DNA of 64,000 bases from Martelella alba. Its GTDB lineage: Bacteria > Pseudomonadota > Alphaproteobacteria > Rhizobiales > Rhizobiaceae. The stretch covers positions 372,001-436,000 of the forward strand of contig NZ_VHLG01000002.1 in NCBI RefSeq assembly GCF_006516955.1, given 5' to 3'. Made by a program: the position numbers and the translations under genes. Of the stretch, positions 775 to 5,024 are shown piece after piece. Below the pieces are notes generated by a model. It searched no databases, was not told where the DNA came from, and saw nothing but the letters and a program-made list of their open reading frames with translations. Numbering within the stretch: position 1 is the stretch's first letter; each line of letters starts with the position of its first letter.

Positions 775-1033
775 CAGAACGGGCCGGCATGACATCAGCA
801 GAAGGGGGCAAGGTTTGTCAGCAGGCTGGGGCCGACCCGGTTCAACGCGACGGCACCGGCGACACTGCCTTCAATTTACGCAGCGTCAGACATGACTTTC
901 GCCCAGCCTTGCGCTGAGTGCATAGACGCCTTGCAGCAAAGCCACTGCCTCGTCGATGAGACCTTCGCTATATGTCAGTCAACACAGATTGATGAGCAAC
1001 AGACTAGGTTGCTCAAGAGACGGAGATTTTACG

Positions 1034-1177
1034 ATGGGCATGGCACGTTCCTTCAACAACTGGGTGAAGTATCGTCAGACCGTCAGCGAGCTCGACCGCA
1101 TGTCGACACGGGAACTGTCGGATCTCGGCATCAACCGCGAAGATATTCGCCGCGTCGCCCGCAAGGCTTCGTTCTAA
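1034..1177 (+). CDS. DUF1127 mini-protein, copy A
   Basis: 47 residues, small, basic and Arg-rich. The LDRMSTRELSDLGI segment followed by RRVARKASF is the hallmark of DUF1127 (YjiS-like) proteins. The ATG at 1034 is preceded by GAGACGGAG; an in-frame upstream ATG at 956 would add 26 uncharacteristic residues and is rejected. In Rhodobacter a DUF1127 protein (CcaF1) is co-transcribed with the CcsR small RNAs and acts in RNA processing and turnover. The same arrangement is seen here, with hairpins carrying CCTCCTCCC loops starting directly after the stop codon. The protein is identical to copy B at 2004. The function here is inferred from that precedent. Confidence 0.9.
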   Translation: MGMARSFNNWVKYRQTVSELDRMSTRELSDLGINREDIRRVARKASF

Positions 1178-1184
1178 GCTTCCC

Positions 1185-1329
1185 CCCGGCCTTCAGGGCC
1201 GGGACATCAATTCGTTGCGACGCACTCCTCCTCCCAGCGTCGCCTCGATATGGTTGACGATACTCCTCCTCCCAATCGTCAATCAACCCAATGACGCCCA
1301 CCGGATCCTCCTCCCCCGGTGGGCGTTTT
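1185..1329 (+). ncRNA. alpha-r14 / cuckoo (CcsR-type) small-RNA array A
   Basis: Four consecutive stem-loops follow the DUF1127 stop codon. A GC hairpin at 1185-1203 is followed by three hairpins that each expose CCTCCTCCC in the loop. They are 1217-1243 (GCGACGC/GCGTCGC, 13-nt loop), 1252-1284 (10-bp stem with one G-U pair, same 13-nt loop) and 1295-1325 (10-bp perfect stem). The loop is complementary to Shine-Dalgarno GGGAGGAGG. This matches the alpha-r14/'cuckoo' RNA family, in which each hairpin is an anti-SD module, usually Hfq-associated and processed from a DUF1127 transcript under stress. Structure and motif are seen directly; processing and targets are inferred. Confidence 0.85.
1295..1329 (+). 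terminator. Intrinsic terminator of unit A
   Basis: Perfect 10-bp stem CGCCCACCGG/CCGGTGGGCG with an 11-nt loop, followed by TTTT. It doubles as the third CCTCCTCCC-loop hairpin of the array. Confidence 0.85.
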
Positions 1330-1391
1330 GCTATTCTACGGACGTCATTCACGGGTTGCGTCGCATGGCTGGCAGGTCAGGCAGGCGAATG

Positions 1392-1634
1392 TCATGAGGC
1401 CCCGCGCCGATTGGCAAGCCGGCGGATTTCCTGCTCGTGAAGCTCCTTGATTTTCTGCTCATTCTCTTCTCGCTGTCGTTCTTCCTGCTCCCGCGTTGCC
1501 TCTGCCCGCGCCGCCGCCGCGGCCCGTTCCTGAGCCTCTCTATCCCGGCGCAACTGCTCGCGCGCCGCGGTATCGATGGACCTTGACCGGGATCTATCGC
1601 CATAAGGCTGAATTGCCATTTCAAAAGCTCCCAT
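1392..1634 (-). CDS. Hypothetical charged coiled-coil protein
   Basis: 80 residues between the two DUF1127 units, on the opposite strand. From about residue 22 it is a continuous Glu/Arg/Gln/Ala-rich stretch (RRDREAQERAAAAARAEATR and beyond), which predicts a single long helix or coiled coil. There is no signal peptide or membrane segment. A start at residue 6 (1619) is also possible, because GGGAG sits 8 nt before that ATG; GGAAG precedes the first ATG equally well. I recognise no family. The alternative frame over the same bases is Arg/Ser-rich and less protein-like. Confidence 0.55.
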   Translation of the reverse strand: MGAFEMAIQPYGDRSRSRSIDTAAREQLRRDREAQERAAAAARAEATREQEERQREENEQKIKELHEQEIRRLANRRGAS

Positions 1635-2003
1635 AGATTACACTTCCACGACCGTAGCCATTGAAACCGCGATAAAAAATTCTTTAATTTTAATGATGCG
1701 ACCGCAGCTGGAACTGAAAATAAAGGACTTGTGTCACGCGCTCCGCCATGCCCTGCGCGGGATATGAGCGAAATATGGCTTTCTCAAATCCACGATCACC
1801 GACAGCGCCTGGCCACAGGGCAGCTCGGGAGGGGCTGCCTGCGTTTTGCGCAGTGTCAGGCGTGGCTTTCACCCAGCCTTGCGCTGAGTGCATAGACGCC
1901 TTGCGGCAAAGCCACTGCCTCACCGATGAGACCTTCGCTATATGTCAGTCAATACAGATTGGTGAGCAACAGACTAGCTTGCTCAAGAGACGGAGATTTT
2001 ACG

Positions 2004-2147
2004 ATGGGCATGGCACGTTCCTTCAACAACTGGGTGAAGTATCGTCAGACCGTCAGCGAGCTCGACCGCATGTCGACACGGGAACTGTCGGATCTCGGCA
2101 TCAACCGCGAAGACATTCGCCGCGTCGCCCGCAAGGCTTCGTTCTAA
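2004..2147 (+). CDS. DUF1127 mini-protein, copy B
   Basis: 47 residues, identical to copy A at 1034 and with the same upstream GAGACGGAG ribosome-binding region. Retention of an identical protein next to a slightly diverged RNA array suggests recent duplication or gene conversion with selection on the protein. Its role is inferred as for copy A: an RNA-associated stress protein co-transcribed with anti-SD small RNAs. Confidence 0.9.
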   Translation: MGMARSFNNWVKYRQTVSELDRMSTRELSDLGINREDIRRVARKASF

Positions 2148-2153
2148 GCTTTC

Positions 2154-2302
2154 CCCTGGCCGTCAGGGCCGGGACATCAATTCGTTGCGACGCACTCCTC
2201 CTCCCAGCGTCGCCTCGATATGGTTGACGGTACTCCTCCTCCCAATCGTCAACCAAACCCAATGACGCTCACCGGATCCTCCTCCCCCGGTGGGCGTTAT
2301 TT
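2154..2302 (+). ncRNA. alpha-r14 / cuckoo (CcsR-type) small-RNA array B
   Basis: Same layout as array A: a GC hairpin just after the DUF1127 stop, then CCTCCTCCC-loop hairpins at 2187-2213, 2222-2254 and 2266-2296. In the second hairpin the arms are GGTTGACGGT/ATCGTCAACC against GGTTGACGAT/ATCGTCAATC in array A. The changed positions form G-U or Watson-Crick pairs in both. In the third hairpin a C-to-T change gives a G-U pair. The loops are unchanged, so selection appears to act on the exposed anti-SD motif and on the fold. Confidence 0.85.
2266..2302 (+). terminator. Intrinsic terminator of unit B
   Basis: Stem CGCTCACCGG/CCGGTGGGCG (one G-U pair) followed by TTATTTTTT. It is also the last hairpin of the RNA array. 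Confidence 0.8.
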
Positions 2303-2409
2303 TTTGTCGAATGGTTAGCCATTGGCAACGTCCGTCCGCTTCTGCCTTTGACAGGCCGCCCGCGACGACTATGTTGAAACCAGCTTCATTCACTATGATC
2401 TGGTTTGCC

Positions 2410-3759
2410 ATGACATTGACCGAAACGTCTCCCCTCACCGCCGCCTATTTTGATTTCCTCAGCCGCTGCAAGACCGGTGTCGAAGTCTGCGACTTCATCC
2501 ATCAAGAAGCGCTGAAGCATGGCTTTGCCGATGCGTCCGCAGTCCATGATGGCGGCAGGCTGAAGATCTCGCTCCGACTGAACAAGCGCTGCGGTATTCT
2601 GTTATCGATTGGCGATTTCGCCAATATCGACAAGGGATTGAAGCTTCTTGCAACCCATGTGGACAGCCCTCGTCTTGACCTGAAGCCCGCCCCGGCGACA
2701 GAGAAATACGGCATTGGCACCTTGCAGACGCGCTATTATGGCGGCGTTCGATTCTATCAGTGGGTCGGCATGCCGCTGGAATTGCATGGCCGTGGCCAGC
2801 GTGCCGACGGCACATCATTTTCCGTCCGCATCGGCCGTGAGGCTGACGAGCCGGTCTTCACCATTTCCGATCTCGCCCCGCATCTGCGCCACCAGCCGGA
2901 GGGCGGACCGAAAAACAGCACGACGATTACCGCCGAACATCTGAACCTGATCTCCGGCCTGCGCGGCAGCGACAGTGAAGCGGGGCGCCCGGCTAAGGTG
3001 TTTGAAACGCTGCTTCAGGCGCTCGATCTGAAGCCGGAAGATTTCGTGACCGGTGAGTTCGAGGCCGTGCCGGCGGTCGCACCGCGCTATATCGGTTTTG
3101 GCGGCGATCTGATCGGCGCCTATGGCCACGACAACCGCTCCTGCACCTTTGCAGCCCTTCATGCCATGTTTGATATCGATGACGAAAACGGCAATTACGG
3201 CTTCGTCTTCACCGACCGTGAAGAGGTCGGTTCGCAGGGCATTCATGGCGCTGATTCCAACATGCTGGAACGCTTCCTTTTCGAGGTGTTCGAGAAATTC
3301 GGTGACAACAATTACTTCCGCCTGCGCCGGGCAATCTCCAATTCGGTGATGGTCAGCGGCGATGTCAATGTCGCCTGCGACCCAACCTGGTCCGGGCCGA
3401 CCGATGAGAACAATAGCGGCCATCTCGGTAAGGGGGTCTGCATTGCCAAATATACCGGCGCGCGCGGCAAACGCGGCGCCAGCGAGGCGGACTCATCACT
3501 TGTTGGCCAGATGCGCAATATCATGATCCGCGAAGGGATCGCCTGGCAGCCGGGCGAACTCGGCAAGGTCGATTTCGGCGGGGGCGGCACGGTGGCGATG
3601 CATTTCACCCGCCAGGGCGTTCAGGTCTTCGACATGGGGCCGCCGGTGCTCGGCATGCATTCGCCGTTTGAAATCCTCTCTACCGAGGACCTGAAAACCA
3701 CCCGCGACGCCTATGCCGCATTCCTGAAAGACTTCACGATCGAAAACCCGATCGCCTGA
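2410..3759 (+). CDS. M18-family zinc aminopeptidase (first of a tandem pair)
   Basis: About 449 residues, usual for bacterial M18 (aspartyl aminopeptidase-like) enzymes. These are cytosolic di-zinc exopeptidases that trim N-terminal residues from peptides. Metal and catalytic motifs are visible: ATHVDSPRLD (His-x-Asp), GHDNRSC (bridging Asp), DREEVGSQG (Glu-Glu pair) and LGMHSPFE near the C-terminus (His ligand). The start is uncertain: the frame is open back to 2290, but family similarity begins near LTAAYFDFLSR, so the ATG at 2410 is chosen; no strong Shine-Dalgarno decides it. A second M18 gene follows 8 bp later, so the two are probably co-transcribed. Confidence 0.9.
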   Translation: MTLTETSPLTAAYFDFLSRCKTGVEVCDFIHQEALKHGFADASAVHDGGRLKISLRLNKRCGILLSIGDFANIDKGLKLLATHVDSPRLDLKPAPATEKYGIGTLQTRYYGGVRFYQWVGMPLELHGRGQRADGTSFSVRIGREADEPVFTISDLAPHLRHQPEGGPKNSTTITAEHLNLISGLRGSDSEAGRPAKVFETLLQALDLKPEDFVTGEFEAVPAVAPRYIGFGGDLIGAYGHDNRSCTFAALHAMFDIDDENGNYGFVFTDREEVGSQGIHGADSNMLERFLFEVFEKFGDNNYFRLRRAISNSVMVSGDVNVACDPTWSGPTDENNSGHLGKGVCIAKYTGARGKRGASEADSSLVGQMRNIMIREGIAWQPGELGKVDFGGGGTVAMHFTRQGVQVFDMGPPVLGMHSPFEILSTEDLKTTRDAYAAFLKDFTIENPIA

Positions 3760-3767
3760 GCGGATGC

Positions 3768-5024
3768 ATGAAAGTGCCAGAAATGAAACTCATTGATTTT
3801 CTCAATCAAGCCGTCAGCCCCTATCACACGGTCACGACGGCAATTGCGCTGCTGGAGACGGCCGGTTTCGAGCGGCTCATCCCGGAAGCTCCGGCAAAGC
3901 CCGGCAAGCATTACACCGTTATCGGTGGCAAGACGCTTTTTGCCTGGATTGCGCCGGAACAGGCCGATGCCTTTCACATCGTCTCTGCGCATACGGATTT
4001 CCCCTCGCTCAGGGTCAAGACCGAGCCCTATATCAGCAGGCTTGGCAGCCACTTCCTGGCCATCCACCCCTATGACGGGCCCAATCTTGCCCGCTGGATG
4101 GATCGTGACCTGAAGCTTGCCGGACGGATCTATGTCAGCGACAAGGGCCGCGTCAGGCCGAAAATGATAGCACCTGACCTTGGCTTTCGCACGATCGGAT
4201 TGCCGACGCATATGTCACCGGGCGGTGATGCGATCAACGCGCAGACCGATCTGCATGCCTTTTTCGGTACCGGCAAGGCGCTGAGCCCTGAAACATTTTG
4301 GGAAATGCTGACCGGCGACGACAACGGCCAGCCGCTGGAGCATGATCTCTATCTGCATGAGGCTGCAGGCGCATCCCATTTTGGCGTTGATGACGGCTTT
4401 GTCAGTTCCGGCCGGCTCGACAATCTGATTTCCTGCTTCTCCGCGCTTTCAGCCCTTGCCGGGACAAAATCGGCAACAGGCAACACTATCCCCATGGTGG
4501 CGCTGTTCGACGCCGAAGAGATCGGCAGCGGCACCTGGCTTGGCGCGAAGTCGCCATTGCTTGAGAACCTGCTGAAGAAGCTCGGCGGCGATGATGTCAC
4601 CGCCATGATCGGCCGTTCCGCTCAGATCTCGCTCGACGTCGCCCATGCGGTGCATCCGCTGACGCCGGAACTGTTCGACAGCCAGAAATCGCCGATGATG
4701 GCTGGCGGGCCGGTTTGCAAATATGGGATTCGCGGAAATTATGCCTATTCCGCCAATCTGATGGCCCAGATCCGGCTGCTGGCCAGCCAGATCGACTGCC
4801 CTCTGCAGCAATTCACCTATCGGGCCGACCGCGGACAGGGCGGCTCACTGGGGCCGCATTCCTCCACCGCCCTTTCGATCCGCACCATTGATCTCGGAGC
4901 GCCGATCTTCGCCATGCATTCGATCCGCGAAGTCTGTGCCGAAGCCGACGTGACCGCGACGACGGGGCTGATTTCCGCCTTTCTCGCCGCATCTGCCTTT
5001 TTCACGGGCTATGACGACGACTGA
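3768..5024 (+). CDS. M18-family zinc aminopeptidase (second of a tandem pair)
   Basis: 418 residues, a paralogue of the upstream gene. It shows the same metal-site series: SAHTDFPSLR (His-x-Asp), SSGRLDNLIS (Asp), DAEEIGSG (Glu-Glu) and FAMHSIREV (His). Similarity to its neighbour is moderate, so the two probably differ in substrate rather than being a recent duplication. An internal ATG at 3783 is an alternative start. The 3' end overlaps the convergent carrier gene at 5009 by 16 bp. Confidence 0.9.
   Translation: MKVPEMKLIDFLNQAVSPYHTVTTAIALLETAGFERLIPEAPAKPGKHYTVIGGKTLFAWIAPEQADAFHIVSAHTDFPSLRVKTEPYISRLGSHFLAIHPYDGPNLARWMDRDLKLAGRIYVSDKGRVRPKMIAPDLGFRTIGLPTHMSPGGDAINAQTDLHAFFGTGKALSPETFWEMLTGDDNGQPLEHDLYLHEAAGASHFGVDDGFVSSGRLDNLISCFSALSALAGTKSATGNTIPMVALFDAEEIGSGTWLGAKSPLLENLLKKLGGDDVTAMIGRSAQISLDVAHAVHPLTPELFDSQKSPMMAGGPVCKYGIRGNYAYSANLMAQIRLLASQIDCPLQQFTYRADRGQGGSLGPHSSTALSIRTIDLGAPIFAMHSIREVCAEADVTATTGLISAFLAASAFFTGYDDD

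Follow-up and report, generated by a model that had tools for sequence, protein, structure and literature searches.

The small RNA NfeR1 of Sinorhizobium meliloti is the founding αr14 RNA. In the parts of the report that bear on its regulation, NfeR1 is activated by LsrB at a TGCA-N6-GCAT element (-72 to about -57), is repressed by NtrC at a TGC-N11-GCA site (-116 to -100), and is described as independent of Hfq (PMC10746234). On that description, Hfq pull-down would be poorly suited to the study of αr14 units. A different group of loci, which includes the CIN1/cuckoo loci and CcaF1-CcsR1-4 of Rhodobacter sphaeroides, carries a gene for a DUF1127 protein followed on the same strand by hairpins that display anti-Shine-Dalgarno (anti-SD) sequences. 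CcsR1-4 are four RNAs cut from one transcript, and the promoter of their operon is given as RpoHI/RpoHII in the available part of the source (PMC10253847). Small DUF1127 or orthologous genes are also activated by VtlR/LsrB in Agrobacterium (PMC7486931) and in Brucella (PMC12595884), and the VtlR box quoted for the two genera is GCAT-N3-TG-N3-T (PMC7486931); the excerpts of these reports mention no anti-SD RNA behind such genes.

LsrB control of NfeR1 and VtlR/LsrB control of DUF1127 genes thus stand apart in the portions of the literature considered here. Both lines are joined in one predicted transcript with a conserved promoter at a locus of Martelella alba. The duplicated operon found there is a known system, with the arrangement published for αr14/NfeR1 and for DUF1127–cuckoo (CIN1) loci and an apparently lineage-specific duplication. 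A literature search on LsrB/VtlR and on DUF1127–small RNA pairs, covering titles and the beginnings of abstracts, found no DUF1127–αr14 transcript with an LsrB-type promoter, which says little on novelty because the founding papers on cuckoo RNA, αr14, CcsR and CcaF1 lay outside its scope.

A duplicated DUF1127–αr14 unit in Martelella alba

We analysed a 64,000-nucleotide stretch of the M. alba genome (contig NZ_VHLG01000002.1, positions 372,001 to 436,000), hereafter called the window. Two units are located at about positions 868-1331 and 1838-2302, each composed of a promoter region, a gene for a 47-amino-acid DUF1127 protein and an RNA that scores as αr14 (Table 1). The original prediction, made from the sequence alone, had proposed two units 970 bp apart that encode the same DUF1127 protein, each followed by three hairpins exposing CCTCCTCCC. 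The spacing and the protein pair were borne out (coding regions 1034-1174 and 2004-2144, matching PF06568), as were the hairpins, whose three motifs are predicted to remain single-stranded when each RNA is folded by itself; the six anti-SD loops, said to occupy 1.1 kb, span 1.06 kb. A direct repeat of 300 nt that begins at 865 and 1835 shows 95% identity and the same 970-bp spacing. The start of the repeated unit had been put at 881 and needs to be moved about 13 bp upstream, given that homology in unit 1 extends from near 868 to about 1331 and ends past the third hairpin.

Upstream of the two units is a dihydrodipicolinate synthase-family gene that ends at 774, and downstream are two adjoining M18 aminopeptidase genes (2440-3756 and 3768-5021). 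The latter are distant relatives of each other (about 26-27% identity in BLAST segments), and a comparable close M18 pair is present in two Roseobacter contigs (L030, L031).

Table 1. Features of the two DUF1127–αr14 units (window coordinates).
Feature	Position	Strand	Basis or remark
Unit 1 NtrC-like motif TGC-N11-GCA	866..882	+	44 nt upstream of LsrB-type box; motif as given in the available part of PMC10746234
Unit 1 LsrB-type box TGCG-N6-GCAT	910..923	+	Motif match
Unit 1 -10 element CTATAT	968..973	+	TATAT 59 nt after box start
Unit 1 DUF1127 gene, 47 aa, stop included	1034..1177	+	PF06568, 55.4 bits
Unit 1 hairpin right behind stop codon	1185..1203	+	Predicted fold
Unit 1 αr14 RNA	1207..1331	+	RF02344, 113.2 bits; CCTCCTCCC loops 1227-1235, 1265-1273, 1307-1315
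Unit 2 NtrC-like motif TGC-N11-GCA	1836..1852	+	Motif match
Unit 2 LsrB-type box TGCG-N6-GCAT	1880..1893	+	Motif match
Unit 2 -10 element CTATAT	1938..1943	+	Motif match
Unit 2 DUF1127 gene, 47 aa, stop included, protein same as unit 1	2004..2147	+	PF06568
Unit 2 αr14 RNA	2177..2302	+	RF02344, 109.7 bits; CCTCCTCCC loops 2197-2205, 2235-2243, 2278-2286

The units resemble NfeR1 in having three hairpins with CCUCCUCCC loops over 123 model positions, an LsrB-type box and a -10 element at matching places, and a TGC-N11-GCA motif further upstream that corresponds to the NfeR1 NtrC site. They differ from NfeR1 in that the promoter precedes a DUF1127 gene and the RNA forms the 3ʹ part of the predicted transcript, in the sequence at -35, and in the presence of two copies of the unit that encode the same protein.

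We consider it likely that these are independent transcription units of the αr14/NfeR1 kind, activated by LsrB, that yield both a DUF1127 protein and an anti-SD RNA and that were duplicated together with their promoter. By this model, a LysR regulator of the LsrB/VtlR type would bind TGCR-N6-GCAT and activate a promoter that lacks a canonical -35 element. The transcript would be translated into the 47-aa DUF1127 protein, and its 3ʹ part would be, or would be processed to, an αr14 RNA some 123 nt long whose three CCUCCUCCC loops could pair with the Shine-Dalgarno sequences of many mRNAs and so reduce their translation during redox or nitrogen stress. Unit and promoter would have been copied together once the lineage had separated from that of Martelella sp. 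HB161492; alternatively, the copies would have been homogenised since.

Transcription of unit 1 is expected to start near 980-982. The T run that follows the third hairpin is short in unit 1 and longer in unit 2, and a scan for consensus terminators between 760 and 2450, which allowed only loops of 3-8, returned none. The hairpin immediately behind the stop codon of unit 1 is a possible processing or stabilising element; by eye, the HB161492 orthologue also has a post-stop hairpin, with altered sequence.

Origin of the second copy

Units 1 and 2 are identical at 151 of 166 positions in the promoter region, 143 of 144 in the coding region and 119 of 126 in the RNA. The corresponding values for unit 1 and its HB161492 counterpart are 103/174, 128/144 and 108/127. 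The HB161492 locus (L029) is syntenic, with a neighbouring M18 aminopeptidase that is 93% identical, and it carries a single unit at the position of unit 2. HB161492 is the only relative in which this site was located, and by comparison with its lone unit the second copy looks lineage-specific. Among the matches listed for 13 Martelella genomes, this genome alone has two over-cut-off αr14 matches within 1.5 kb. Given the high identity between units, the single unit in HB161492 and the lack of a close pair listed in other Martelella, the second copy looks recent, or else kept alike by conversion. The DUF1127 coding regions (1034-1177 and 2004-2147) are more alike than their flanks, for which conversion and constraint on the message are both candidates.

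The spacer between the units (1335-1840) has no further copy in the genome and its open reading frame (ORF) has no Pfam match, and we rejected a mobile-element origin for it on these grounds. That ORF (1395-1634, minus strand) encodes a highly charged protein of 80 aa, for which a search of 60 other genomes gave a single weak hit (E=3.1e-4).

The same genome contains a second DUF1127–RNA array, in which a unit with a DUF1127 gene and two hairpins recurs with a period of 445 bp where contigs C54 (1-1021) and C48 (1-540) end (L050, L051). Its copies are 97-99% alike, not identical, and each contig maps to a different side of the lone HB161492 unit (L034). Counting one unit that spans the contig gap, the array comprises at least four units.

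Duplication of the unit with its promoter means that output per induction should be higher, and a dosage role for the second copy is plausible. A less favoured account, which nonetheless deserves serious weight, is that the second copy is a neutral, recent tandem duplication without any dosage role. The copy is not widely kept, as the 12 other Martelella genomes show no αr14 pair closer than 1.5 kb among their listed matches, but both promoters, both proteins and all six loops have stayed intact, and the same genome has amplified a second DUF1127–RNA locus.

An LsrB-type promoter shared across Martelella

Each copy has its own promoter, in which the box begins exactly 59 nt before the TATAT of the -10 element, the full CTATAT starting 58 nt past the box start in both units. 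For comparison we used 39 fetched sequences from the 40 listed over-cut-off Martelella copies (G008:C96 was left out). All 39 units, whether DUF1127-first or RNA-first, have TAT[AC][TA] exactly 59 nt after the box start; the boxes were selected with the box motif once the pattern was already known, the -10 offset was no criterion, and the sequences are related rather than independent. The sequence CTGCC occurs between box and -10 element in 23 of the 39.

The box by itself (TGCR-N6-GCAT) is not rare, with 12 instances in the window against 11.6 expected. What is rare is its position: 26 of 2240 background stretches of 213 nt contain a box. The composite of box and -10 element is found 11 times in the 5-Mb genome and 0 times in a reversed control, and it offers a simple genome-wide pattern for the regulon. 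Nine of the 11 composites are at DUF1127/αr14 units; in one case (C48:33-96) the unit behind the composite is truncated at the contig edge. Of the remaining two, C2:53079 (L099:1501-1564) precedes a short ORF, 55 aa when read from an internal ATG, for which Pfam gave no match up to E=1 and which is a possible further regulon member, and C11:313840 ends in TTTTTATCA instead of a CTATAT-like element and may reflect chance. Rfam models at gathering gave no match at either site.

Boxes accompany 42 of the 50 Martelella motif clusters. Five clusters scored as boxless are isolated single motifs or weak two-motif matches (L049, L056-, L063-, L093- and L071), and another (L050:72) is interrupted by a contig end. 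Two more were counted as boxless and do have a box: that of L051 is 140 nt upstream of the start of a DUF1127 gene that the protein pattern had missed, and that of L065 is 126 nt upstream of the DUF1127 start. In L062, a cluster below the cut-off, a box is present with no -10 element at the expected place. When the box definition was relaxed slightly, 12 of 14 tandem loci from other genera had at least one box followed by a -10 element at offset 59, and two had none.

Relative to the NfeR1-type box TGCA-N6-GCAT, positions 910 and 1880 carry the TGCG variant, which is one base off and would lie near -72 when counted from the putative transcription start. The NfeR1 -35 sequence CTTAGAC, 17 nt before the -10 element, is absent from both units, which have ACTGCCT. 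An exact VtlR box (GCAT-N3-TG-N3-T) was sought in both promoters and rejected for lack of a match. Aligned at the same GCAT, the VtlR box differs by exactly one base in all 39 units, a comparison in which GCAT is shared by choice and only two of the three further bases are informative. Of 43 units examined, three have the motif TGC-N11-GCA at a distance of 44 nt upstream of the box, namely the two units of the window and their HB161492 counterpart, and one more has it at 42 nt; when all searched offsets are counted, the number is 13 of 43. Because so few units have it at that offset, NtrC input would be possible at this locus and not general in the genus.

The genome encodes a LysR-type protein next to the thioredoxin reductase gene trxB (L095:544-1455, minus strand), a neighbour that lsrB presumably also has elsewhere. 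This protein scores 610 bits against PDB 9HH1, which was deposited as an LsrB structure (PMC11975290), and no NCBIfam model was over its cut-off for the protein among the best 25 matches. A short DUF1127 protein, an LsrB-like regulator in the genome and a VtlR box with one mismatch are thus points of likeness to the VtlR/LsrB-activated DUF1127 genes of Brucella and Agrobacterium, as those genes appear in the excerpts at hand.

The arrangement had been assigned to αr14, cuckoo and CcsR together. Its αr14/cuckoo-type RNA behind a DUF1127 gene stands, whereas a promoter of the CcsR type does not: CTTG, as in an RpoH-type -35 element, occurs in the 8-nt stretch at the -35 position in 0 of 39 Martelella units, and an RpoH promoter was rejected on that basis. 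The alternative that the locus is an RpoH-driven operon for heat and oxidative stress like CcaF1-CcsR, with a DUF1127 protein that binds the RNA encoding it and helps RNase E to cleave between the hairpins, is accordingly improbable. It accounts for the shared order of DUF1127 gene and anti-SD hairpins, and CcaF1 is reported, in the parts of the sources available, to bind RNA and, together with RNase E, to be required for the maturation of CcsR (PMC10253847, PMC8625941). However, the box is of the LsrB type in 39 of 39 units, unlike the RpoHI/RpoHII promoter that the partial source describes for CcsR. Moreover, the three hairpins match as a single αr14 RNA, and each copy in the window corresponds to one three-hairpin RNA with its own promoter rather than to several RNAs from a common transcript. 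RNA binding by the 47-aa DUF1127 protein could still be true.

Anti-SD loops and the DUF1127 protein

The LsrB-activated αr14 model receives further support from the RNAs themselves. The covariance-model check proposed in the original prediction placed both RNAs above the Rfam RF02344 gathering score of 58.8 bits (Table 1). In their predicted folds, both have three hairpins with unpaired CCUCCUCCC on differing stems. The window contains eight copies of CCTCCTCCC, six of them within the two units, and 100 shuffles gave a mean of 0.50 and a maximum of 3. At the nine αr14 matches of the genome, full CCTCCTCCC occurs six times in the window, three times each on C52 and C53, four times in the assembled array and not on C55. 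The C52 locus (L052:5732-6734) consists of an αr14 RNA followed by two DUF1127 genes, the first of which has its own box and -10 element.

Folding was extended to 35 of the 39 fetched over-cut-off copies, excluding L040 and L047 (four motifs) and L090 and L093 (two). In all 35 three-motif Martelella RNAs, every motif is predicted to stay free of pairing at 8 or more of its 9 bases, and hairpins 1, 2 and 3 show 29, 28 and 12 distinct flank sequences across the set. RNAalifold on a MAFFT alignment found compensatory change in 10 of 24 pairs and did not recover hairpin 1, so those pairs do not include it; for this reason hairpins were additionally folded singly, anchored on the motif. When the whole precursor is folded in silico, the middle hairpin gives way to pairing with the DUF1127 message and may be disrupted in the uncut transcript, a weak prediction given that translation would disturb such pairing. 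Among the ORF starts of the window, only two have an upstream 7-mer of GGGAGGAGG, both weak, so that the window itself offers no apparent target.

Both copies of the protein match PF06568 (E=5.1e-15, against a Pfam cut-off of 23.3 bits) and have no NCBIfam match, and the HB161492 protein is identical to both. This identity and the high conservation of the coding region relative to the promoter region between copies would suit a locus that serves chiefly to make the 47-aa protein, whose targets would be other proteins, for example the sensor kinase PhoR, through which small DUF1127 proteins of A. tumefaciens work according to the available part of one report (PMC12501420), with the hairpins serving mainly as a stable 3ʹ end; that reading is improbable, because invariant loops on compensating stems are not expected from selection for stability alone and because RNA-first loci with the same promoter exist.

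Cassette number and tandem αr14 RNAs in the family

Under the LsrB-activated αr14 model, a broader and rather unlikely conjecture is that the redox regulator LsrB drives little beyond DUF1127 genes and anti-SD RNAs through a rigid design (a 14-bp box, 45 nt and a -10 element), and that this lineage tunes a global translation brake by the number of cassettes, two in the window and at least four in the 445-bp array, which recombination could alter. The natural copy-number variation among Martelella genomes makes the question of anti-SD RNA dosage testable.

The αr14 RNA is near-universal in the family, with matches in 194 of 198 genomes, 187 of them over the cut-off. Matches 267-620 bp apart were counted by eye in at least 14 other genomes among the matches listed, and runs of three occur in G169 and G194; tandem αr14 RNAs are therefore ordinary. 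Of 14 tandem loci fetched, most have DUF1127 genes located between the RNAs or behind them. Unlike the M. alba window, these loci showed neither two DUF1127 genes with an identical protein nor a second whole promoter–DUF1127–RNA repeat, as judged with a gene pattern that can miss genes. In other genera of the family, one locus has three tandem motif clusters (L087), and another (G035:C12:149477-150162) packs five weak αr14-like matches, with partial overlaps, into 0.7 kb.
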